A stretch of DNA of 11,194 nucleotides from Lachnospiraceae bacterium (GTDB taxonomy: Bacteria > Bacillota > Clostridia > Lachnospirales > Lachnospiraceae), in NCBI GenBank assembly GCA_020860745.1, contig JAJBTR010000330.1:1-11194 (forward strand). The letters run 5' to 3'. The notes beneath the pieces were generated by a model that worked only from the letters and a program-made list of their open reading frames with translations, was not told the DNA's origin and did not search any database. How positions within the stretch are numbered: the stretch's first letter is position 1; every line of letters begins with the position of its first letter. This document shows, piece after piece, positions 1 to 10,518 of this stretch. A program made the position numbers and the translations under genes.

Positions 1-435
1 GAACAGATAATGTCCCTTGGTTGTTTTCGCTGTCGTTAAAATCAAATGTTGCTTTTGTTGCTTGGCATAAAGACGATTCTGTTATGCGAATCTGCTTTCC
101 ATCTACAACAGAAGTGATGTCAATATTAGCAGTGTTTCCACCAAGAATCTGGAAATGAAGGGTTACTCCGGATGCATCGTCTTTATAACATCCTGCATAT
201 CTTTCATACAAAATTTGCAGTTGTCTGTCGCTGTCTTTATAGCCGGTTAAATTATAAAAAAGTTCAATTGCTCTTGCGTATTCCCCTTTTTCCATACAGG
301 CAACCGCTTCATTGTATTGTGTCAATTGCTGATCAACGGGCGCTTCATCAGCTTTTTTGAAAACCAAATCTGTCCCGAAAATCAAAAAGCCTGCAATCGC
401 CATAACAACAGCAATTACACTTATAGCCAATACAA
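1..435 (-). pseudogene. C-terminal part of second TIR protein (TM + YxDS repeat), out of frame with its N-terminal half, runs off window
   Basis: An open frame runs from about 435 to the window edge with no stop codon. It lies one frame away from the zinc-ribbon/TIR gene at 421-1002. It starts with a hydrophobic helix (IVLAISVIAVVMAIAGFLIF) that follows directly on the basic KKQKK tail of that gene. Next comes one TPR-like YxDS repeat (YNEAVACMEKGEYARAIELF ... GYKDSDRQ), then a beta-rich stretch of unknown function. No convincing start codon or ribosome-binding site precedes the frame; the first ATG lies inside the TM helix. It is therefore best read as the continuation of the upstream gene after a one-base loss in the six-base A run (T run at 436-441 on the plus strand). 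The end of the gene lies outside the window. Confidence 0.7.
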
Positions 436-1002
436 TTTTTTCTGCTTTTTACCTGTATGCTTGTTGTTTACAGTAAGAAGGTCAGCCTCTGAGGTTCTTC
501 CAAGCGCATTTAATATGCTTTTTATGAGGTCTATATCCGAACCGATTTTATTGTAATCCAGCGCCTGTATTGCGCTGATATTTTTGGGAATATCATAAGG
601 ATTCATCTCAGAAAAAACAGGAATCACTATTTTTCCGGTATATAAACTCTCATAATGATTGACCAGAGATTCGAAATTTTCTTTCGATGTGCCGATTATA
701 ATTACAGTTTTTGCATTAGCGAGCGCAGCATTACAAGCTTTTTTATACAACTCGCCGCTTAAATCAGAAACTGAAATGCGGCTGTAAAACGATTTGATTT
801 TTGTTGCCTCAAGTTTTTGATATAAGTCTTGTGCAATAATGGAATCCTTCGTACGCCTCCCGGCGTGATCGCTTTCTATATAGCAGATATATGTATCAAT
901 ATCCTCATAGTAATTTGCGACAGAATATTTTGTCCCGCAGGATTCGCACACATAAACTCCGTCGCCGATTATTAAATTTCCGCCGCATTTTTTACATTGC
1001 AT
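421..1002 (-). CDS. Zinc ribbon + TIR domain protein, N-terminal part (frameshifted before its TM helix)
   Basis: The readable product is 193 aa. Residues 1-25 form a zinc ribbon (CxxC pairs C3/C6 and C19/C22). Residues about 35-170 look like a TIR fold: DIDTYICYIESD as the first strand, a GRRTKDSI region, FYSRIS, and ALANAKTVIIIGTS. The basic tail HTGKKQKK should lead into a TM helix, but the frame ends four codons later. Adding one A at the run 436-441 joins it to the open frame at 1-435. The residue aligning with the catalytic Glu of NAD-cleaving TIRs (LEDKIG in the upstream paralogue) is Ser79 here (SVSDLSG), so this TIR may lack NADase activity. The start ATG lies 5 nt after the stop of the previous gene and has only a weak ribosome-binding site, suggesting translational coupling. 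It is the last gene of the operon that can be seen. Confidence 0.8.
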   Translation of the reverse strand: MQCKKCGGNLIIGDGVYVCESCGTKYSVANYYEDIDTYICYIESDHAGRRTKDSIIAQDLYQKLEATKIKSFYSRISVSDLSGELYKKACNAALANAKTVIIIGTSKENFESLVNHYESLYTGKIVIPVFSEMNPYDIPKNISAIQALDYNKIGSDIDLIKSILNALGRTSEADLLTVNNKHTGKKQKKLYWL

Positions 1003-1007
1003 ATCGC

Positions 1008-2822
1008 TTAACTCTTATCTAACCATACATCTTTTATCTGCGTTTTAACGGTTGTATTCGTAGGGGCAGTCCCCTCCAAATTATATTCCGTATAGATTGT
1101 ACCGCTTCTTGTTACGATAAAATCTTTATTCATATATACTACATCTTCAATAATAGTATTTTCACTACCTAAGCGAGACAATGTTAATTCGTTGCTAAGA
1201 ATAAAAAATTGTAAAGTAATATCACTATTCGAATAAAAATCAGTTGTCTCTACATCTATAATATTTAAGTTTTCATAAGTGTCATAAGCGCCATCAGCAA
1301 ATGTAAATAATGTTCCGTTTTCATCAAGAGCAACTATACTTACCGTTCCACTACTGATTTCAACATTAACGCTAATCTCTTTGATGTTTTTTAACGAAGC
1401 AATAAATGAATTAGCATTTGTCTGAATGCCATAGAACACGGATACGACTGTTCCATCGGATTTTAATCCAACCAATGCAGCACTCGCCATTCCTCCGTCA
1501 CCACATCGTTCTACATCGTAAGACAATGAAACAATTTTATCCCACTCATTTGTAGCTTGTAACCAACTATCCGTACCGTCTGGATTGATTTCATTCTTAG
1601 TATTTCCATATATCACCTTTCCTTCACTGGTTAAGGCCGCATTTGTAGTATTAAAACGAGAAGTAATTTGTATAATATTTTCCCAATCAGAATCTAATCC
1701 GTTATTAGTTTTTGAATTTGTTACATAGCCGTCCTCATGTAATGCATATAGCGCAATATTATCGGCGATAGAAACGATTTTACCATGCTCGTCTATGCTA
1801 ATGTTACTGTTGGCATCTCCGGGATTATAAGTAAAAGTTTCAACAGAACCATTCGCTGAAATATAATAAGCACCATGTGATGATGAACCCAAATTATTAT
1901 TTGTTGCGACAGTTGCCAGCTTTTCTCTCCAATTAAGTTCAGCTTTTTTCTGCATTTCTGCCGAATCTTTGTATCCGTTCATGTCCCGAAACGCCCAAGC
2001 GGCCTGAGGATAATCACCATCATAATACAACTGCATGGCGGCAGTATATTTGCCCATATTCAGAGACTCTTGCTGCATCTCGGCTGAATCCTTAAAATCA
2101 GACAGTTTTGCAAAAGCATCAGCTGCCTCACCGTATTTCTCTTCGTTATATAACTGCATTGCGGTCTGATAATCAGCGTTATATGTAATGTAATCTTTTA
2201 TATAGGGGAAAGAAACAACACCTGCCACCAATATAACACCCACAAGGATCGCAGCTGATATGCCCAGTCTCTTTTTTAATTTTTTTCGCCGGGCTGCCAA
2301 CATAATCGGCAACGGTATCATCTTTTTGATTCCTCGGAGAAGTTCCTGCTCAAAGTCGTCTTTCGACATATTCTGTGTGGCCAAGATAGCAAATTCGTCC
2401 GGCAAATCTGACTTTGGCATATCAAAATAAAGCGGAATCAGTGTTTTGCCTGCGTCGTTTTGGCGTAATGTTAAAAAACGGCTCCACTCATTTCTCACCC
2501 AAGGGGATTCAATGTTTTCCTTGGAGGAGCAGACAGTCAGCATCACCTTACTGGAATAGAGCGCGGCATAAATATAAGGCTCATATTCCGTTCCGATCTT
2601 ATCCTCTAAGGTAATGCGGGAGAAAAACACCTTGTAACCGTTCTCAGTCAGTTTTTTATAAAGTTTTTGAGCGGCAATGCTGTCTTTGGTTCTGTTTCCC
2701 TTATTATCCGTTTCCTTATAGGAAATAAAGATGTCAAATGGTTTTTCTTTTTTTGAAACAGCAAGAATCCCTTTTTGTATATTGTTGATCGCTTCAGCAT
2801 TCTCTCGATAAAACGCCGTTTG
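1008..2822 (-). pseudogene. TIR + TM + YxDS repeats + RCC1-like C-terminal part of first TIR protein, downstream of in-frame TAG
   Basis: The frame is open from codon 128 of the gene that starts at 3203. It is in the same frame as 2823-3203 and separated from it only by the TAG at 2823-2825. Order (joined numbering): TIR domain about 150-290 (PFDIFISYKETD; FFSRITLEDKIG, where Glu200 is the likely NADase residue; SPWVRNEW); basic stretch RRKKLKKR; TM helix about 312-333; two YxDS repeats about 341-420 (MQLYNEEKYGEAADAF ... FKDSAE; MQLYYDGDYPQAAWAF ... YKDSAE); and about 430-731 with several RCC1-like units (WENIIQI, WDKIVSL, DGTVVSV, NGTLFTF). By the positive-inside rule the TIR is cytosolic and the RCC1-like part is outside. 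The first start-like codon, GTG at 2630, falls inside the TIR and lacks the first TIR strand, so this half is unlikely to work alone. Confidence 0.8.
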
Positions 2823-3203
2823 CTAATCGTCGGCATATTGGAGAACCTTTTGGTAATTTCTATCGTTTAAGATGGATTCGTAATGTGTGCGGTTACAGGT
2901 AGGGATATATTTTCCCGTTTTCGGATCTTGGACAAATGTAACGCCGTATTTACATAAAACAATGTCCCAATAAATTTCCGGATCTTCCGGGCATAAGGCT
3001 AAAAGCTGATTAAAAATGGTTTCAGCCTTGTCATATTCGTTTTGCCGCAGATAGCTGTTTTCCCTGTCGTATAACAGCTGCGCGCTTTCATCCGAAAACA
3101 GAGGCAGAATTTGTTTGCTTCCGCAATAATCACAAACAGCAACCCTGCTTTTAGAGGTCACTGTGAGACTGCCGCCACATATTTTACATTTAAAAGTCTG
3201 CAT
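2823..3203 (-). CDS. Zinc ribbon + TPR-like N-terminal part of first TIR protein (ends at in-frame TAG)
   Basis: The readable product is 126 aa. It has a zinc ribbon (C6/C9 and C24/C27, CKICGG ... CDYCGSKQ) followed by a TPR-like helical pair (YDRENSYLRQNEYDKAETIF ... PEDPEIYWDIVLCKYG). From memory, Clostridial proteins with this N-terminus normally continue as YADxYQ...IYxExA...NIQKGIL into a TIR domain. Here the frame reads LQYADD, then TAG, then QTAFYRENAEAINNIQKGIL in the same frame. The stop sits where relatives tend to have Tyr or Lys, so one base change explains it. The start ATG overlaps the last 14 nt of the HNH gene, so translation is probably coupled. Whether any full-length protein is made depends on TAG readthrough or on the base being an error. 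Confidence 0.8.
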   Translation of the reverse strand: MQTFKCKICGGSLTVTSKSRVAVCDYCGSKQILPLFSDESAQLLYDRENSYLRQNEYDKAETIFNQLLALCPEDPEIYWDIVLCKYGVTFVQDPKTGKYIPTCNRTHYESILNDRNYQKVLQYADD

Positions 3204-4188
3204 GATTTTTCATTCCTTTATAGATTTCTATCAATTCTTCAAAGGACAATTTAAGCCCCACGCTATCCAGTTTGCCTTTTTGCTTGTCGTATAATATTTT
3301 TAAATATTTTTCTTGTATTTCATCATTTCCATAATGGATTGCTCGATGACAGTTTGGACAGATACACACTATGTTTTCTTCTCTATCCAATTTAGATTTT
3401 TTCTGATACCTCTGACTGTTTGACACTGTGCACGGAATTAAATGATGTGCCTCCATATAAGGTACACCTGAACGAGTTTGAAAAGTAAGGCGAGATGAAT
3501 CGATAGCACAGTGATAATTATTGATAGCCAGGACTCTTTTTGCAATTAAAGGATCTCTTTTGATACATTGACCACCGGAGAAGTTAGATATCTCATCGGG
3601 TACATTTTCATAGTTTCGTGCATATTTGAATGTCGCTGCCGGTGTGGAATGAACTTGATTTTGATAATCGTAACTTTCAAGGTCATTGATATAGGATATA
3701 ATTTTTTCTTTCAGTTCCGGATATTCTTTTAAAAAGGTGCGCTGTTTCCGAAACATATATGGATTGTATTTTGAGGTCTCAATGACAAAAGATTGTTCTA
3801 TAGATTCCAGATTGAACAGATTATCGCTCATAACACTGTAAGATGCGCAGCGTTGCGTACCGTCTGAATCTTTAAAATATCTACCCTTTTCTTCTCCTGA
3901 TTGCGGTTTGTTAAAGACAGTTGCGTTTTTACAATAGGCGACTATCCTTCTGTCTGTACTTTTACCGATAGCCTTAACATAGATAACGAGTACACCTTCA
4001 ACATAGTCTTTTGCTTTCGGGTCTAAATTAGTAATATCAACATGGTCATCATCCGGGACAAAGCCATAAAACATTCCATCGTCATTTCGTCTTAAATTGA
4101 GGATTTCATATCCGATATGGTCTTTAGGATAATCTCCGGATTGTAAGTCGACTAACATCATTTTTATATCCATTTTATTTTTCTCCAT
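3190..4188 (-). CDS. HNH endonuclease with unassigned N-terminal domain
   Basis: The product is 332 aa from ATG 4188. This start is preferred over the TTG at 4206 because AAGGA sits about 9 nt upstream of it. The C-terminal half holds a clear HNH nuclease of the type seen in restriction enzymes: Cys227 in NYHCAID, then PYMEAHHLIP with His248-His249, then REENIVCICPNCHRAIH with Asn272, a CPNC zinc pair (C277, C280), His281 and His285. The N-terminal part (GYEILNLRRNDDGMFYGFVP ... VEGVLVIYVKAI) is a compact beta-rich domain. It could be a modified-base reader of the PUA/EVE kind, as in EVE-HNH restriction enzymes, but that is a guess. The gene follows its upstream neighbour by 18 nt and overlaps the TIR gene by 14 nt, so it is a core member of the operon. 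It is intact. Expected role: cutting DNA. Confidence 0.82.
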   Translation of the reverse strand: MEKNKMDIKMMLVDLQSGDYPKDHIGYEILNLRRNDDGMFYGFVPDDDHVDITNLDPKAKDYVEGVLVIYVKAIGKSTDRRIVAYCKNATVFNKPQSGEEKGRYFKDSDGTQRCASYSVMSDNLFNLESIEQSFVIETSKYNPYMFRKQRTFLKEYPELKEKIISYINDLESYDYQNQVHSTPAATFKYARNYENVPDEISNFSGGQCIKRDPLIAKRVLAINNYHCAIDSSRLTFQTRSGVPYMEAHHLIPCTVSNSQRYQKKSKLDREENIVCICPNCHRAIHYGNDEIQEKYLKILYDKQKGKLDSVGLKLSFEELIEIYKGMKNHADF

Positions 4189-4206
4189 TTTCTTGTTTTC
4201 CTTCAA

Positions 4207-5808
4207 TTATTTCAAATCAATCCAAATACAAGGCCGCACACCTTTTGCACGGACAACAGTTTCTCCGTCTTCAACGATCTCGCCGGACGCCGTTACATAC
4301 ACAGCGTTTACATCGGCCTTTGTACGAAGCCACCAATCCTTTTCACCGGAGAGGATGAATTCGTCTTCCAGATCTTCTGCCTCTTCTTTGCTGAGCAGAT
4401 AGACCTTGCAGTCTGCACCGTCAATTTTGGTCGTCAAGATACCGGCTAACTGCTCTTCGGAGAACGAACCGATAAATTCATTGTTGAGCCAGTTGCAAAG
4501 GGAACTTTCCTGCCATGTAACATCTTTTATTTCATTGTTGTACGGCAGTTCACAGATAGCTTCCTGCGCAATCAGCAGCATCCTGTCATCCTCCGTTTGC
4601 AAGACGCGCCATGCGATCGGCTTGTTTTGGTAGGTTCCGTAATAAACGGCGCTGTCTGTTGCAAGACGATTTTGAATCTGCTCGATTTTCTGTTTACAAT
4701 CTTTGTAATCTCCAAGTTCAGTGTAGAGTTTCATTGCCTCAAGATAGTTCTGACTTTCAAAATAATCTTCGGCTTGTATGTATTTGTTTTCAGTCACTGT
4801 CTGCTTTACAGACTCGATCATCTCCTTACTGTCCTTGTAAGTACCCAAGCTTTCAAAAGCCTGAATTGCCTCATCATATTTTCCTTCTTCATATAGCTTC
4901 TGGGCATCTAAATACTGCTGTTCGGTAATCGCCGTTTTGCACGCCTCAATCATTTCGTTGCTGTCGCTATATCCATTCAGGCTTTCAAACACTACCCTTG
5001 CTTCTGTGTACTGCTCGTTTTCATACAACGACATCGCGGTCTTGTAGGTATTATTTGGAACAATAACAAAGCAGATAACCAACGCCACGGTTGCCAGCGC
5101 TCCCAAAATGCCAACCGTCACGGCGACATATTTCACGCCGGAATAGTCATCGGCTTTTTTCTCTTCCTTCACATTTTTCAGCATCCGACATTTCTGATTC
5201 CGCTCTTTTAACAAGTCGCTGATACCTTCGATATCCGCCATTGCTTTCTCTTTATCCGAAACATCCGCTTTTAAAAGAATAATTTTTGCTTCGATTTGCT
5301 TTTCCAGTTCGCTGAGCATGGAATGGCTCATAGGATCGCTGAACTTGATATCCTCCGATAAAGCATTGATTTTTTGTGTAATCTCCGCATCGTCTGTTTT
5401 GACAGAGGACAGAAGAAACTGCATATTATTGATAAAATATACTTTTTCCGCAATATGCGCTTCCTGCTTTTCAATGGATTCTCCGGCGGTTTTTGACGCC
5501 AAGAGAAGAATGATAAAAAATCCTGCCAGACAACCGTTGATGATCAGCGCCGGGACATAGGGGAACGACGGATTGAGGATCTGTCCAAGGCCAACAATTG
5601 TTTGCAGAATCAGATAAATCCATGCAATAGAAACCAGCGGAAGACGCAAAAAGGTTCTTTTTTTGTCTTCCGAGTCAAAAAGAAACAGTATAACTGCCGC
5701 AAACAAAATGACAGCCAAGGTCACAAAGCTGTAACCTATCCAAAATGTAATACCGTGCACCGTCGGCAGAAGAAAAGCAATCACATTAAATAAAGCCAGT
5801 AAAATCAA
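4207..5808 (-). CDS. Multi-pass membrane protein with coiled coil, YxDS repeats and DUF6273-like C-terminus; probable frameshift near start
   Basis: The open frame is 533 aa from a TTG with no ribosome-binding site. A much better start is ATG 5848, preceded by AAGGAG (5856-5863). It reads MKLNRKK and then needs one A fewer in the run 5829-5834 to join this frame as MKLNRKRISIAAVLILLALF (corrected length 546 aa). In corrected numbering: four TM helices (about 8-120), a coiled-coil region (about 120-230), a fifth TM helix (237-263), three YxDS repeats of about 40 aa (267-388), and a DUF6273-like domain (396-546: YYGTYQNKPIAWRVLQ, SLCNWLNNEF, WWLRT, GVRPCIWIDL). The 4-TM/coiled-coil part occurs beside SPFH genes in other Clostridia. 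The ribosome-binding site overlaps the SPFH stop codon, so the two are probably made together. Function is unknown; a membrane receptor or assembly partner is plausible. Confidence 0.78.
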   Translation of the reverse strand: MILLALFNVIAFLLPTVHGITFWIGYSFVTLAVILFAAVILFLFDSEDKKRTFLRLPLVSIAWIYLILQTIVGLGQILNPSFPYVPALIINGCLAGFFIILLLASKTAGESIEKQEAHIAEKVYFINNMQFLLSSVKTDDAEITQKINALSEDIKFSDPMSHSMLSELEKQIEAKIILLKADVSDKEKAMADIEGISDLLKERNQKCRMLKNVKEEKKADDYSGVKYVAVTVGILGALATVALVICFVIVPNNTYKTAMSLYENEQYTEARVVFESLNGYSDSNEMIEACKTAITEQQYLDAQKLYEEGKYDEAIQAFESLGTYKDSKEMIESVKQTVTENKYIQAEDYFESQNYLEAMKLYTELGDYKDCKQKIEQIQNRLATDSAVYYGTYQNKPIAWRVLQTEDDRMLLIAQEAICELPYNNEIKDVTWQESSLCNWLNNEFIGSFSEEQLAGILTTKIDGADCKVYLLSKEEAEDLEDEFILSGEKDWWLRTKADVNAVYVTASGEIVEDGETVVRAKGVRPCIWIDLK

Positions 5809-5855: not shown

Positions 5856-5863
5856 CTCTCCTT
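5856..5863 (-). promoter_or_regulatory. Ribosome-binding site deciding the start at 5848
   Basis: On the minus strand the sequence is AAGGAGAG, 7 nt before ATG 5848, and it overlaps the SPFH stop codon TAA (5862-5864). No comparable site precedes the TTG at 5808. This is the main reason to place the start of the multi-pass membrane protein at 5848 and to infer a one-base frameshift at 5829-5834. Confidence 0.7.
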
Positions 5864-6980
5864 ATAAATTTTTCAAAAGTTCCTGTTTTGCAGCATTGAA
5901 CTCTTCTTCGGACAAAATGCCGCTTTCTTTCATCAACTTTAGTTTTTCCAGCTTCATTTTAAAAGCGTCAAGCCCACCATCAGCCTGTGCAGGAGCGGAA
6001 ACTTGTCCGATGGCGTCGTTCATCATACCGCCTACCATGCCGCCGACAGCACCGCCGACGCCTGCCATTGTGCCTAAGCCGACACCCATATTGGTAAACT
6101 CGCCGACTGCTTCGTTTTCGGCCACCTTTTCTGCGACATCAAAACCGCGCTCCTGCTGATAGGTATATCCTTCCTGAGCACGCTTTGTCGCCATTGCCTG
6201 CGATTCAATAACTGTCTTTTTTGCCTCGGTTTCGGCATGGATGACATCGGCTTGCTGTCTCAACTTTGCCTCTGCGATATCCGCATATTGCCGGATATGT
6301 ATCTCCTTGAACTTTTCATAAGCCGTTTCGCCGTCCGGCTTGGCGATTGTCGTAACAAAAAATTTGTCGAGGCCAATTCCGTATTCATTGAAATCCGGTG
6401 TTAATGCACTTTTTAATGCGGACGAAAATTCATCCATATGCGCGTCTACTTCAAAAATACTGTAAGGAGCGCTTTGCATCGTTGCCGCAATATATGGCTT
6501 GATTTTGAACATCAGATAAGAACGGAACTGCGTAACAAACCCACTTTGCGTAAGGTTGGATTCTGTTCCGACCAGTTTGGTAAGGAGCCTGCGGGAATCA
6601 CTGACAGAAAGAGTCATTTCACCGGAAGCGCCGATCTGGAGAGGGAATTTATATGTCGGCTCCATATACCGCACCTGACTGTCCGTGCCCCATTTAATCG
6701 CCATCTGCTGTGTTTTGTTTATAAAATACACCTCGCAGTGAAACGGTGTTTTTCCACCGGTTGGCAGATTCAAAAAGCGCCTGAGCAAAGGAATATTTTG
6801 TGTTTCAAGCGTATATCTTCCTGCTTCAAACAAGTCCAGCGCCTGGCCGTTTTTAAAGAAAACAGCCTCTTGGGATTGATGGACGATAAGCTGAGACAAG
6901 GTGTTGAAATCTTCAATCGGGGACTTCCAGACAAAAGTGGAGTTATCCCCCTCATATTTGATAATTTTGGCAAGTGCCAT
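5862..6980 (-). CDS. SPFH-domain membrane scaffold protein with C-terminal SHOCT domain (YdjI-type)
   Basis: The product is 372 aa and the gene is intact. It starts with MALAKIIKYEGDNSTFVWKS, typical of the YdjI/'virion core protein'-like SPFH family. The SPFH region covers about residues 25-225. A charged helical stretch follows (about 225-290: AEAKLRQQADVIHAETEAKK). Next are a Gly/Met-rich loop (about 298-325) and a C-terminal SHOCT helix pair (about 338-372: MKLEKLKLMKESGILSEEEF). SPFH proteins oligomerise at membranes. In Bacillus subtilis, YdjI acts with membrane partners YdjG/YdjH and PspA in envelope stress; here it likely scaffolds the membrane proteins encoded downstream. The start is fixed by GGGAGGAAA (6986-6994). 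It is the first gene of the operon, and its start lies 31 nt from the invertible promoter segment. Confidence 0.88.
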   Translation of the reverse strand: MALAKIIKYEGDNSTFVWKSPIEDFNTLSQLIVHQSQEAVFFKNGQALDLFEAGRYTLETQNIPLLRRFLNLPTGGKTPFHCEVYFINKTQQMAIKWGTDSQVRYMEPTYKFPLQIGASGEMTLSVSDSRRLLTKLVGTESNLTQSGFVTQFRSYLMFKIKPYIAATMQSAPYSIFEVDAHMDEFSSALKSALTPDFNEYGIGLDKFFVTTIAKPDGETAYEKFKEIHIRQYADIAEAKLRQQADVIHAETEAKKTVIESQAMATKRAQEGYTYQQERGFDVAEKVAENEAVGEFTNMGVGLGTMAGVGGAVGGMVGGMMNDAIGQVSAPAQADGGLDAFKMKLEKLKLMKESGILSEEEFNAAKQELLKNL

Positions 6981-6985
6981 CTCTA

Positions 6986-6994
6986 TTTCCTCCC
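6986..6994 (-). promoter_or_regulatory. Strong ribosome-binding site of the SPFH gene
   Basis: GGGAGGAAA on the minus strand, a few nt before ATG 6980. It lies outside the invertible segment, so it is kept in both orientations; only the promoter would change. Confidence 0.75.
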
Positions 6995-7011
6995 TCGGTT
7001 AGTGAAATGCA

Positions 7012-7030
7012 ACATAATCCGCGTTATGTT
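7012..7030 (+). repeat. Left inverted repeat / recombination site
   Basis: ACATAATCCGCGTTATGTT. The exact reverse complement is at 7272-7290. The site itself has dyad arms ACATAA and TTATGT around a 6-bp asymmetric core TCCGCG, the form expected of a tyrosine-recombinase crossover site. The next seven inward bases match the other copy at five positions. Confidence 0.88.
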
Positions 7031-7115
7031 ATAAACGCAGGATAAAATTTGCAGCTTAAACGTACCGAATCATTTTAGAGTCGTAGACAGCATTTAAAAA
7101 TGAATGCAGAAAGCC

Positions 7116-7147
7116 AAGCCTTTTCAGAATTTGCTTTGGAAAGGCTT
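7116..7147. other. Hairpin inside the invertible segment
   Basis: AAGCCTTT (7116-7123) pairs with AAAGGCTT (7140-7147), with a further T-G and C-G pair inside and a loop of about 12 nt. There is no clear U run on either side. It could limit readthrough, act as a protein-binding site, or be a leftover terminator. Its role is unknown. Confidence 0.4.
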
Positions 7148-7207
7148 ATTTGTGCTGCTTTCATTCGACAATATCCCGTAAAATCATACTTTTCTTCGCC
7201 AAACTGT

Positions 7208-7236
7208 TTGAATTTTCTCTCGAGCTATGATATAAT
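7208..7236 (+). promoter_or_regulatory. Sigma-A promoter inside the invertible segment
   Basis: -35 TTGAAT (7208-7213), a 17-bp spacer, and -10 TATAAT (7231-7236) preceded by TG at -15 (extended -10, TGATATAAT). Transcription would start near 7243 and run rightwards. No plus-strand gene lies downstream; the transcript would meet the terminator at 7296-7319 after about 75 nt. The promoter therefore makes sense only if the segment flips. Confidence 0.82.
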
Positions 7237-7271
7237 AATATAAATAAAATAGGTTTGGTATGTCCGTTTTC

Positions 7272-7290
7272 AACATAACGCGGATTATGT
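7272..7290 (-). repeat. Right inverted repeat / recombination site
   Basis: AACATAACGCGGATTATGT, the perfect reverse complement of 7012-7030. Because the two asymmetric cores face opposite ways, recombination between the copies inverts the DNA between them rather than deleting it. Confidence 0.88.
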
Positions 7291-7295
7291 ACTCA

Positions 7296-7319
7296 GCCGC
7301 CGATTTCGGTGGCTTTTTT
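7296..7319 (+). terminator. Intrinsic terminator stopping the OFF-orientation transcript
   Basis: GCCGCCG (7296-7302) pairs with CGGTGGC (7307-7313) through a 4-nt loop, with one G-T pair, and is followed by six T. On the minus strand no T run follows the hairpin, so it does not terminate the recombinase gene. It lies just beyond the right repeat and faces the invertible promoter. The end of the T run overlaps the recombinase stop codon. Confidence 0.8.
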
Positions 7320-7654
7320 CATAGGATCAGCCGCATATTTTCCATTCTTTTGCGGTGTTCATTGCCGGTGGAAACGATATAAATTCTTGTGGTGTTGATA
7401 CTGCTGTGACCTAAAATATCGGCTAATTTTGCAATATCCTTTTCAATGCCGTAAAACACCCTTGCGAACAGATGCCGCAGGTTATGCGGAAACACCTTAT
7501 GCGGACTCACGCCTGCCTGCCCACACAGTCCTTTCATCTCCCGCCAGATGTTTGTGCGGCTCATCGGTCTGCCCGTTCTTGTAATAAAAATTGTACCTGA
7601 TGATATCCCTTGCTCCGCTGCATAGCGGAGCAGGTTCTTTTTCAATTCTTTCAC
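7319..7654 (-). CDS. Tyrosine recombinase, C-terminal catalytic part (separated by frameshift)
   Basis: The 111 aa readable from GTG 7654 carry most of the catalytic core. In joined numbering these are His227 and Arg230 (PHNLRHLFA), His253 (ILGHSSINTTR) and the nucleophile Tyr262 (TTRIYIV). It is the direct continuation of 7651-8163. Adding one A to the four-base A run (T run 7672-7675 on the plus strand) yields LKGKTRSVFIVKEL and a single protein of 281 aa, the usual size for small Xer-like integrases. No ribosome-binding site precedes the GTG. The stop codon abuts the switch terminator. The likely job of the whole enzyme is to invert the adjacent segment. Confidence 0.82.
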   Translation of the reverse strand: MKELKKNLLRYAAEQGISSGTIFITRTGRPMSRTNIWREMKGLCGQAGVSPHKVFPHNLRHLFARVFYGIEKDIAKLADILGHSSINTTRIYIVSTGNEHRKRMENMRLIL

Positions 7655-8163
7655 GATAAATACAGACCGTGTTTTCCTTTAAGGGATACGATTGCTTCTC
7701 CGTTTTTAACAGCCTCCACCGTTATGTATTGTAGCTCGCTCACACGGATCCCTGTGCCGCAGATTGTCTGCAAGATAAGGTTCAGCCGCTCGTTGCCTTT
7801 CTGCTTAGCAGTATTTACCAGCCGCATATACTCCGCTTTGGTCAGTTCCTTTTCTTCGGAGCAGTAGATTTGTCGTTGTAGCTTGATTGATTTCACTCTG
7901 CAGTCCGTCCGGCCTAAAAATGAGAACAGGCTGTTGATGGAAGCCATCATAGAGTTGATACTTCGCACTGCATAGTTTTCGGAGAGCAGCTTGTTTTTAT
8001 AGGCAATGACCGTTTCTTTCGTAATCTCCGCGCCGCCTAAATATGCAGCGAACGCCTGCACATCCCGCAAATATTTTCCTATAGTGTTTTCGCTTTTCTC
8101 CTCTCTTTTGAGATAGCAGGAAAAGTCCCCAATTATTTTTTCTGTTAAAATTCGTCCTTTCAT
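7651..8163 (-). CDS. Tyrosine recombinase, N-terminal part (DNA-inversion enzyme candidate, frameshifted)
   Basis: The readable product is 170 aa. It has a SAM-like core-binding domain (about 1-100: EKSENTIGKYLRDVQAFAAY) and the beginning of the catalytic domain with the first catalytic Arg140 (TICGTGIRVSEL) and the hairpin Lys near 162-164 (SLKGK). The frame then changes and ends at HGLYLS. Restoring one A at 7672-7675 joins it to 7319-7654 with all R-K-H-R-H-Y residues present. The start ATG 8163 has a good ribosome-binding site (CGGAGGTA, 8171-8178). No terminator faces this gene at its 3' end, so its transcript could enter the switch and the SPFH operon. As given, the enzyme would be inactive. 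Confidence 0.82.
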   Translation of the reverse strand: MKGRILTEKIIGDFSCYLKREEKSENTIGKYLRDVQAFAAYLGGAEITKETVIAYKNKLLSENYAVRSINSMMASINSLFSFLGRTDCRVKSIKLQRQIYCSEEKELTKAEYMRLVNTAKQKGNERLNLILQTICGTGIRVSELQYITVEAVKNGEAIVSLKGKHGLYLS

Positions 8164-8278
8164 TTTGATTTACCTCCGAGTAATCTATTTTACCCGAAAA
8201 GTATGACACGAAAATTGTCCCCTCCATTTTAAAGAAAGACAATCCGCTAATCGAATGTACGGACATAGCATAAAGACT

Positions 8279-8458: not shown

Positions 8459-9364
8459 ATGCCGATATTATTGAAAAGAAAAAACGGTGAGATCACGCCG
8501 TTTCGCAATGCGGACTTTATCCCTGCATTCTACTTTATTCCGAAATCCATTTTGGACAGGTGCGGTTCGGAACTGAACAGCATTCCCCGCAATCCGAGAA
8601 AGCTATTGCAAAGCTGGGACGCAATCGCTATGGTAGAAAGCGATTTGTTTCTGCTTGCCATTATCGACGCTTATGCGTTTATGGTCTGGCCGTTTATGGG
8701 ACTGGGTGCAAAGCGTGAAATCTATTCCGGTTATGAGCCGTCTTGGATTTTCGCCCACGCAGCGCCATACTGGATTCAGGAAATGCAGGAGGAAAAGATT
8801 CTTCCGGCAGCAAAGGAGTTGTTAAAGAACGGAGGTGTGGATGAAATCTTCGGCTATGTGTCGGAAGAAGAAACCTACGATCTGTTCAGTTGGCTCGTTC
8901 CTCAGACAATGGCGCACAATAATATGAAAGCTGTCATTGATACCGCAAAGGAGTTCCGCTGCTTTGAAGATTTTGATTATCGGAACAGTCGGCAAAAAAT
9001 TGATTTTTACCGCAAGTGGCATCACACCCGTGCCAAGAATGTTACGGTCGAATCTCTTGAAGAAATCAAGGAACGGTATGCTGAAAACAACGACGGTATG
9101 GAATGGGATATCCCCGATGAAAACAGCAATATGAACCATACTGTTTTAGAGCCGATGGCGGCAAGCGAGTTTTTAGCTTCGCTCGGCGAAACGGACAGGC
9201 AAATCCTTACCATGCGTATGGAGGGTATAACGCTTGAGAAAATTGCGGAAAAGCTCGGATTCAGAACGCACAGCGCCGTTCACAAGCGCATCCGAAAAAT
9301 CGGGCTGGCTTACGAGAAGTTCAGCGGCGAGGATTTCGGATTCAGCCAAAAGAAAATCATCTGA
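8459..9364 (+). CDS. Protein with sigma-70 region-4-like C-terminal helix-turn-helix; N-terminal domain unrecognised
   Basis: The product is 301 aa, starting at an ATG with an ideal ribosome-binding site (AAAGGAGG). Residues about 234-288 resemble sigma region 4 or a related helix-turn-helix: ASEFLASLGETDRQILTMRM, then GITLEKIAEKLGF as the first helix and HSAVHKRIRKIG as the recognition helix. The first 230 residues (aromatic-rich, with SWDAIAMVESDLFLLAIIDA and PYWIQEMQEE) match no domain I know. I see no sigma region 2, so it is probably a DNA-binding regulator or plasmid-control protein rather than a full sigma factor. It has its own promoter and terminator and stands ahead of a ParM-like operon, which suggests a regulator of the mobile-element backbone. 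Confidence 0.7.
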   Translation: MPILLKRKNGEITPFRNADFIPAFYFIPKSILDRCGSELNSIPRNPRKLLQSWDAIAMVESDLFLLAIIDAYAFMVWPFMGLGAKREIYSGYEPSWIFAHAAPYWIQEMQEEKILPAAKELLKNGGVDEIFGYVSEEETYDLFSWLVPQTMAHNNMKAVIDTAKEFRCFEDFDYRNSRQKIDFYRKWHHTRAKNVTVESLEEIKERYAENNDGMEWDIPDENSNMNHTVLEPMAASEFLASLGETDRQILTMRMEGITLEKIAEKLGFRTHSAVHKRIRKIGLAYEKFSGEDFGFSQKKII

Positions 9365-9431: not shown

Positions 9432-9605
9432 ATGACACAGTACCATCTAATAAAATCGGAACAAATCAAAACTAAGAATACCCTATGTATGCAATGCGGA
9501 CACCAAAGCTGTTTGATGATAAGTAGTGGTGTCTGCCCTGTTTTTTCGGGCAGCAAACAAGAAATCATTAATATCAAGGAGGACAATCACAATGAAAAAA
9601 TATAA
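9432..9605 (+). CDS. Small Cys-rich protein, possible zinc finger, coupled to the ParM-like gene
   Basis: The product is 57 aa from ATG 9432, chosen because AAGGAGGA sits at 9420-9427. It has a compact Cys/His cluster (C19, C22, H24, C27, C35: CMQCGHQSC ... GVCPVF) that could bind one zinc ion. I do not recognise the family. Its last 14 nt overlap the start of the ParM-like gene, so translation is probably coupled. A hairpin CTGCCC/GGGCAG (9533-9553) lies within the coding sequence shortly before the ParM ribosome-binding site. It may be a small regulator of the segregation genes. Confidence 0.6.
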   Translation: MTQYHLIKSEQIKTKNTLCMQCGHQSCLMISSGVCPVFSGSKQEIINIKEDNHNEKI

Positions 9606-10518
9606 AGAAACCTATATCATCGGTATTGACCACGGCTATGGAAATATGAAAACGGCTAATTGCTGTTTCCAGACAGGTGTGACCGTATATGATAAAGAAC
9701 CAATTTTCAAAGATAACCTGCTTGTTTGGAATAACAAGTATTATCTGATCGGCGCAGAACATAAGGAGTTTTCGGCAGATAAAATGCTGGATGAAGATTA
9801 TTATGTTCTGACGCTTGCGGCAATCGCACGAGAGCTGAATATTGCAAAAATCTATTCTGCTGATGTATTGATTGCCGCCTGGCTTCCGCTGACTTGGGTA
9901 AGCGAACAGCGAGAAGAATTCAAACGATATTTGCTGAAGAACGAAACAGTTGATTTCAATTTCAAAGGCAAGGATTATCATATCCGCATTGTCGGCGCAG
10001 ATGTTTACCCGCAGGGATTTGCCGCTATTGTCAATCACTTATCCGATTTTTCAGGTGTAAATATGCTCTGCGATATTGGAAACGGCACGATGAATATTAT
10101 GTTCGTCAATGATAAAAAGCCGAACCCCAACCGCTGTTTTACCGAGAAATTCGGAACGCACCAGTGTATGCTCCAAATCCGTGAAAATCTGATGAGAGTT
10201 CATCACGCAGAGCCACCTGAAGAAATGATTACCCGTGTGATTCGTTTCGGCACAGCAGATGTTGACGGTGAATATCTGAAGACCATTATCCAAACCGCAA
10301 GAGAATATGTAACAGGTATTTTTCGTAGACTGCGTGAACACGGCTACGATTCAAAACTGATGAAGCTGTATATTGTCGGTGGAGGCGGTTGTATGATCCA
10401 TAATTTTGCCGAATATGACGAAAACCGTATTACTGTAAACGATGATATTTGCGCTACTGCCAAAGGCTATGAACGAATGCTGGAAATGAAATTAATTAAA
10501 AACGGCGGTGCGTTATGA
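9592..10518 (+). CDS. ParM/StbA-family actin-like ATPase (DNA segregation)
   Basis: The product is 308 aa from ATG 9592, chosen for the ribosome-binding site AAGGAGG at 9577-9583; the frame extends further upstream without a comparable site. Actin-fold landmarks are present: phosphate-1 loop GIDHGYGNMK (11-20), phosphate-2 loop CDIGNGTMNIM (160-170), and adenosine motif LYIVGGGG (259-266). Proteins of this type polymerise with ATP and push plasmid or conjugative-element copies apart, together with a small DNA-binding adaptor. The next gene overlaps its stop codon (ATGA) and fits the adaptor role. It is intact and marks the right half of the window as plasmid- or ICE-like. Confidence 0.88.
   Translation: MKKYKETYIIGIDHGYGNMKTANCCFQTGVTVYDKEPIFKDNLLVWNNKYYLIGAEHKEFSADKMLDEDYYVLTLAAIARELNIAKIYSADVLIAAWLPLTWVSEQREEFKRYLLKNETVDFNFKGKDYHIRIVGADVYPQGFAAIVNHLSDFSGVNMLCDIGNGTMNIMFVNDKKPNPNRCFTEKFGTHQCMLQIRENLMRVHHAEPPEEMITRVIRFGTADVDGEYLKTIIQTAREYVTGIFRRLREHGYDSKLMKLYIVGGGGCMIHNFAEYDENRITVNDDICATAKGYERMLEMKLIKNGGAL

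Follow-up and report, generated by a model that had tools for sequence, protein, structure and literature searches.

This locus raises the question of whether a short DNA segment, lying upstream of an operon that begins with an SPFH gene, is an invertible promoter seen in the orientation in which it points away from that operon. The window, by which we mean the whole stretch of 11,194 nucleotides that was analysed, spans the whole of contig C318, one of 430 in its MAG. Judging from its sequence and from that of its relatives, we consider it very probable that the window carries a site-specific invertible promoter cassette in the OFF state. The features on which this reading is built are collected in the table.

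Features predicted in the window, with strand and the basis or remark given for each
Feature	Position	Strand	Basis or remark
Far (cargo-side, left) recombination site, ACATAA-TCCGCG-TTATGT(T)	7012-7030	+	repeat search, family consensus
Near (recombinase-side, right) site, exact inverted copy with the same 6-bp core	7272-7290	-	repeat search
Invertible segment	7031-7271	.	homologous segment antiparallel in relatives with parallel flanks
Invertible promoter TTGAAT-17-TATAAT, TG before -10 (extended -10)	7208-7236	+	score 10/12
Terminator-like hairpin just right of the right repeat	7295-7314	+	absent from the original prediction
Terminator-like hairpin AAGCCTTTTC...AAAGGCTT, upstream of the invertible promoter	7116-7147	+	
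Box GACAAT-N12-CATACTTTTC, upstream of the invertible promoter	7167-7194	+	
Second box copy GACAAT-N8-CATACTTTTC, upstream of the recombinase	8196-8219	-	
XerA/XerD-like tyrosine recombinase, frame broken around 7651-7654	7319-8163	-	ORFs 7651-8163 and 7319-7654
SPFH (Band_7_1) and SHOCT gene, first cargo gene	5862-6980	-	profile search
TPR-like repeats and DUF6273 protein, second cargo gene	4207-5808	-	
HNH_2 nuclease gene	3190-4206	-	profile search
Zinc-ribbon-like/TPR/TIR (TIR_2) gene	1008-3203	-	in-frame stop 2823-2825
Second TIR-like protein of the operon	421-1002	-	weak ThsB profile match, 0.0028
Divergent protein, weak sigma-70 (ECF/region 4) match	8459-9364	+	homologues near the recombinase in 12/81 loci (window included)
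ParM/actin-like protein	9526-10518	+	relaxase and ParB genes beside the L085 homologue

The original prediction had described a perfect 19-bp inverted repeat, and this was confirmed: the two arms match at 19 of 19 positions, can be extended to 24 of 26, and rank first among the inverted repeats of the window. At ≤3 mismatches the 19-mer arm has two sites in the whole window against 0.01 expected, and a chance repeat was rejected on the grounds that none of 200 shuffles gave two arm matches. Direct reading of each arm also bore out the recombinase-site symmetry ascribed to it, and the near-consensus extended -10 promoter was located inside the repeat as described, so that the window has the inverted repeats enclosing a promoter by which an inverton is recognized. 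As given, this promoter is indeed OFF, facing away from the SPFH gene, whose start codon lies at the expected 31 nt outside the left repeat, and into the terminator-like hairpin just right of the right repeat; past that hairpin it would read antisense into the 3' end of the recombinase gene, which is convergent with it.

Relatives were collected from public genomes with one intact homologue of the recombinase, and the best 80 of 265 were taken to give, with the window, 81 loci; the hosts of the 80 are mostly recorded as Clostridia or groups within them, with exceptions such as L101 (Rhodospirillaceae) and L110 (Bacilli). The order of the cassette was conserved, running from the tyrosine recombinase through a near site ACATAA-N6-TTATGT and about 240 bp containing the promoter to the far site and the cargo. 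At least 420 nt follow the recombinase in 70 of the 81 loci (window included) and less in 11. Defining a site as ACATAA-N6-TTATGT with ≤1 arm mismatch, and the near site as one within 80 nt of the recombinase end, we found the near site in 68 of the 70 loci and both sites in 64. The pair was missing at this threshold from six loci with room (L073, L076, L086, L112, L127 and L136), of which L086 had shown a site pair with two arm mismatches in the first pair search.

Near and far cores were identical in 62 of these 64 loci, the exceptions being L064 and L070, as against 3.7% identity between different loci, and 30 different 6-bp cores occurred. No core was palindromic in a set of 65 loci, consisting of the 64 of the first pair search (L086 among them) plus L064, which also served for the two-mismatch box, terminator and AGCC-hairpin counts given below. 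Copies within one MAG had different cores (L086, L092 and L111; likewise L063 and L084). Since the first pair finder demanded 15/18 identity and so favoured matching cores, the recount given here dropped that condition; both the recount and a sample of more distant relatives accept any matching far site where several exist (two loci in the recount). That distant sample yielded 25 pairs in 42 loci with cores equal in all 25, five of these pairs repeating first-sample loci with identical segments, while 15 of the 42 loci had room and no pair and two had no room. Tyrosine recombinases need homology in the overlap between their sites, and cores that are matched within a locus and free between loci are the trace expected of such an enzyme. 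Among plasmid-borne relatives at about 50% identity (3 of 4 examined), two have ACATAA-type pairs and L158 has another repeat. A Subdoligranulum plasmid record (L160, 4874-5175) carries a run of three ACATAA-type sites next to a recombinase, an arrangement that could yield segments of two sizes.

The search of related genomes for both orientations, proposed as a check on the prediction, found the segment inverted between parallel flanks in three pairs of loci, L062/L064, L116/L117 and L117/L124. Scored by promoter alone, 53 of 64 loci were OFF and 11 ON; by homology alone, 52 of the 64 segments could be linked, 45 lying as in the window (itself included) and seven flipped (L060, L065, L089, L113, L116, L124 and L129). 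The orientation graph obtained from homology had one inconsistent edge of 470 and left 12 segments unlinkable to that of the window. Because promoter-only calls were close in 14 of the 64 loci and conflicted with homology at L129 and L133, our orientation calls rest on homology.

We regard the pair L062/L064 as decisive. On the recombinase side 1955 alignment columns ran parallel at 95%, the segment itself was antiparallel over 188 columns at 89%, and from the far site into the SPFH gene 1256 columns ran parallel again at 84%; read directly, the promoter of L064 faces the SPFH gene (ON), and L062 is OFF like the window. On the evidence of this alignment, the SPFH operon's own segment has been inverted in nature. 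Inverted segments in relatives, this SPFH pair included, thus bear out the central claim of an invertible promoter placed before the SPFH operon and seen OFF. Counting against a switch, 13 of the 14 loci in which SPFH is the first cargo gene were OFF, L064 being the sole ON copy, and since the two cores of L064 differ, this ON copy at 6881-7160 is perhaps naturally locked. In L129, where a TIR gene precedes SPFH, the segment was flipped by homology on a modest best single match of 42 nt at 81%, and the promoter score favoured the opposite orientation by one point. Among 20 new pairs of the distant sample, called at a score difference of at least 3, six promoters faced the cargo, 12 faced the recombinase and two were undecided; two of the six, L186 and L195, are each contradicted by a single short homology match (39 and 28 nt).

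Read in the promoter's orientation, the segment has the order hairpin AAGCCTTTTC...GAAAAGGCTT, box GACAAT...CATACTTTTC and promoter TTG-17-TGnTATAAT. The AGCC-type hairpin was present in the segment in 44 of 65 loci against a mean of 0.55 in shuffles that, like those for the box and the OFF-terminator, preserve base composition only; a stem of at least 9 pairs of any kind, some not of the AAGCC type, stood upstream of the promoter in 55 of 65, a count made without shuffle control. Paired changes on both hairpin arms were seen in L065, L103 and L129. RNAalifold returned no structure from the gappy hairpin alignment, an Rfam search of the window gave no match, and a fold-energy scan separated real from shuffled sequence only partially (median -18.9 vs -12.5; ≤-9 in 64/65 vs 56/65). 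The box was found with one mismatch upstream of the recombinase in 46 of 79 loci (1.2 in shuffles) and inside the segment in 28 of 64 (1.4 in shuffles), and with two mismatches inside the segment in 42 of 65 loci, upstream of the recombinase in 42 and in both places in 34.

A tyrosine recombinase gene had been placed next door; the gene is there, but as two frames (7651-8163 and 7319-7654) instead of one intact gene, and a genome-wide search of the MAG contigs shows the same break. XerA/XerD profiles match it with scores below their equivalog cut-offs. Patterns of the R-K-H-x-x-R-H-Y set, whose residues we take to play the catalytic roles in these recombinases, occur in 64-78 of the 80 relatives, the tyrosine pattern used being a loose one, and in the window the set is split over the two frames; 77 of the 80 relatives have no stop within the matched stretch, and Merdimmobilis hominis An559 (L085) is an example of a strain whose recombinase is intact. 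Other recombinases in the MAG comprise relatives of 46-47% on C85 and C366 and a partial one of 31% on C50. The 46% relative on C366 has a 20-bp repeat pair, GACAGAATATACATTCTGTC, next to it (L139, 1094-1365 of G000:C366), whose arms differ slightly from those described above and which may mark a second switch.

The cargo opens with SPFH in 14 of the 81 loci (the window, L061, L062, L064, L071, L072, L075, L078, L085, L090, L098, L104, L115 and L119, the last with no open + frame called); in L077 and L129 SPFH comes later in the cargo. Elsewhere the cargo was a signal-peptidase/TasA-like set (named by eye), a collagen/BspA-repeat protein, an Ig-like/cohesin protein or an NRPS; in L063 (5563-9780) the far site is followed by an NRPS gene with condensation and AMP-binding domains, and the promoter score there is OFF. 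Most other SPFH homologues are without such a switch: among 19 SPFH loci scanned (window included), a long upstream repeat pair was found in two, the window and L042, and a 12- to 14-base pair in L041 and L053, while nine further SPFH loci had some repeat in four and the ACATAA type in none within the stretch examined. L042 (9812-10029; L013 2312-2529) is an SPFH-TIR operon, its SPFH protein 62-63% identical, that has another, perfect 28-bp repeat pair just upstream of SPFH and no tyrosine recombinase motif within 18.8 kb; the pair may be another switch, unrelated to the present one, on an operon of this kind. Another SPFH homologue (L145, 1307-1468, in G473) has a 22/26 inverted repeat upstream, with 110 nt between arms that are themselves near-palindromic.

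The naming of the operon as SPFH-HNH-TIR did not hold as a general description, the HNH gene being matched in the window alone among the 81 loci, many of which were covered over part of their cargo only. At the in-frame stop of the TIR gene the 91%-identical L075 orthologue reads on, and the L085 TIR gene matches the surrounding stretch in one frame. The glutamate of W-[VI]-[RK]-N-E-W, which we assume to be catalytic, was invariant in all seven aligned TIR proteins. Residues 1-301 of the L085 TIR protein gave a predicted fold with mean pLDDT 85.8, for which the best Foldseek match, and the sole one to a solved structure below 0.001, was the TIR domain of AbTir (PDB 7uxu; E 4.6e-4, TM 0.69 by target length). 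A predicted TIR fold, in this orthologue, and the glutamate expected of a TIR NADase are both present. Defence profiles matched the L085 TIR protein (candidate PDC-S66, 1.5e-10), the HNH protein (restriction/HNH, best 5.1e-9) and, weakly, the sigma-like protein (CARF, 0.0048), and gave nothing on SPFH, the DUF6273 protein or the window's 540-aa TIR frame. From these features the operon would encode a membrane-held TIR effector with an SPFH scaffold; an anti-phage action is a guess from sequence, and the suggested bet-hedging in defence, resting on a TIR fold and on candidate or weak defence profiles, was not supported.

The window may not be native to the genome in which it was binned. Its GC content was 41.0%, whereas 18 MAG contigs averaged 49.3% (sd 2.8, minimum 42.1%), and its tetranucleotide distance to the MAG was 0.47, the MAG's own contigs averaging 0.34 and reaching 0.58. 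The distance to L085 (Merdimmobilis hominis) was 0.14, partly owing to shared sequence, and the window's DNA matched Merdimmobilis hominis at 86.6% over about 7 kb. Merdimmobilis belongs to the Oscillospiraceae, and the MAG is of the same family as G031 (the genome of L058), recorded as Lachnospiraceae. The low GC and a match across families indicate that the contig may be a transfer or wrongly binned, and the tetranucleotide distances favour neither.

Three other explanations bear on this reading. The facing of the promoter towards the recombinase in the large majority of loci by promoter score (53/64) would suit a promoter of fixed orientation that makes a small RNA or an antisense transcript against the recombinase, with the repeats serving only as recombinase-binding operators. 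We rejected this as highly improbable: the homologous segment is inverted in relatives while its flanks stay parallel, 55 of 65 loci (15.8 in shuffles) have a terminator-like site between promoter and recombinase, in the zone that runs from the near site to the final 45 nt of the recombinase gene, and the cores match between the two sites, which operators would not need. A separate explanation concerns only the present state of the window's copy, namely that its recombinase broke, the promoter froze OFF and the silent operon is decaying as a locked relic. The two-frame recombinase and the in-frame stop in the TIR gene, from which it follows that this copy may be stuck OFF, together with the fact that the other recombinases among the MAG contigs examined are no closer than those named above, are set against sites and a promoter that are intact. 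In so fragmented a MAG, faulty assembly could account for both breaks, or a recombinase acting in trans, such as those on C85 and C366, may still serve the sites, the one on C366 adjoining its own repeat pair with similar arms; we hold the chances of a relic to be even.

The third explanation takes the sites for attachment sites at which cargo is integrated or exchanged, inversion being a side reaction, and it is compatible with a switch. Different cargo does stand behind close recombinases. On a quick and weakly resolved recombinase tree (14 of 77 inner branches starred, 32 open; the window placed by its N-part), the SPFH label changed 12 times against a shuffled mean of 12.8 and was as low in 152 of 500 shuffles, which indicates that cargo has been exchanged; at least 7 changes were forced by supported branches. 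Ten pairs with different first cargo were compared for the point at which their DNA match ends. Four of them (L075/L096, L085/L135, L091/L083 and L096/L135) lose it 1-4 nt beyond the far site and L117/L124 loses it 18-21 nt beyond, whereas five (L085/L096, L085/L091, L085/L083, L085/L087 and L116/L117) lose it within the segment or earlier; with 6 kb of flank examined, new cargo may have been inserted ahead of the old. Relaxase, ParB or ParM genes near the cassette in 17 of the 52 loci that have 4.5 kb or more upstream, including MobA/VirD2-type relaxases in L085, L058 and L113, point the same way as the four far-site endings. Megablast of the whole window against plasmids and phages gave no match, and SPFH sought in viral contigs was found in none. 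Crossing over between loci at these sites is not expected of a tyrosine recombinase, given that cores differ between loci, and the promoter and terminators are positioned as for a switch, so we judge it unlikely that the sites are primarily attachment sites.

Under the invertible-promoter reading, a XerA/XerD-like tyrosine recombinase would act at the two inverted ACATAA-N6-TTATGT sites and flip the roughly 240 bp between them, and expression would follow orientation. By the coordinates, the ON state would bring the extended -10 to about 7066-7071 on the - strand and start an SPFH-operon mRNA whose leader would measure about 80 nt. In the OFF state the promoter would fire into the terminator, stopping transcripts before the recombinase gene, while the hairpin that precedes the promoter probably keeps read-through from reaching the cargo.

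Taking the family as a whole, we tentatively advance, at slightly less than even confidence, a plug-in phase-variation module made up of a recombinase, sites with matched cores, an insulated promoter and a box common to the recombinase and cargo promoters, with surface proteins, an NRPS gene or a TIR-SPFH effector operon as its cargo. Such a module would travel among gut Clostridia, often with relaxase, ParB or ParM genes, and be joined again and again to new cargo at its far site; because each copy mostly has a 6-bp core of its own, a cell with several switches would flip each independently, and the shared box would tie the flipping rate to cargo expression. In the present locus, stochastic DNA inversion would be linked to an immune-type TIR operon. 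The family amounts to many natural replicates in which core identity, cross-talk and the rules of cargo exchange are directly testable, and natural ON or OFF copies could reveal the cost or benefit of the TIR-SPFH operon.

The open-licence literature gave no report of a phase-variable SPFH-TIR operon or of SPFH-TIR anti-phage activity, no report of an invertible promoter controlling defence genes beyond a review on mobile elements, none of a bacterial SPFH-TIR operon beyond a paper in which SPFH appears in the reference list alone, and nothing recognized by title on cargo transfer among such elements or on other ACATAA-type clostridial invertons. Known systems resemble parts of the present one. 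The predicted TIR fold of the L085 orthologue is shared with the TIR NADase AbTir, whereas the operon's TIR is joined to a zinc-ribbon-like part and TPR repeats and stands beside an SPFH protein. Invertible promoters of Bacteroides invert a promoter between short repeats; likened by description, they have the layout of the present switch and belong to another phylum. Clostridial invertons with a linked tyrosine recombinase have already been published, and in the accessible parts of that work inverton group 139, with tyrosine-type invertase group 35, comprises 33 invertons of hCom2 gut strains, 32 of them from Clostridia; in the two examples printed with coordinates the repeats measure 26 and 14 nt and enclose 205 and 227 nt, and read-supported orientation shifts are given for Clostridium sp. 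D5 and Intestinimonas (PMC11892184). Like the present family, this group is found in Clostridia with a tyrosine recombinase within 5 kb, and, judged by that description and not by repeat motif, our family is probably group 139 or close to it; the main text of the paper contains no words beginning TIR or SPFH (PMC11892184). In Clostridioides difficile, as the available portions of the reports describe, the RecV switches (Cdi1-7) are invertible DNA near operons and depend on a recombinase (PMC5903667, PMC5386303, PMC2784873), RecV being needed for several of them and not for all (PMC5903667). Compared by description, the present family differs in having a recombinase directly beside each switch, a feature that holds by construction as the search began from the recombinase.
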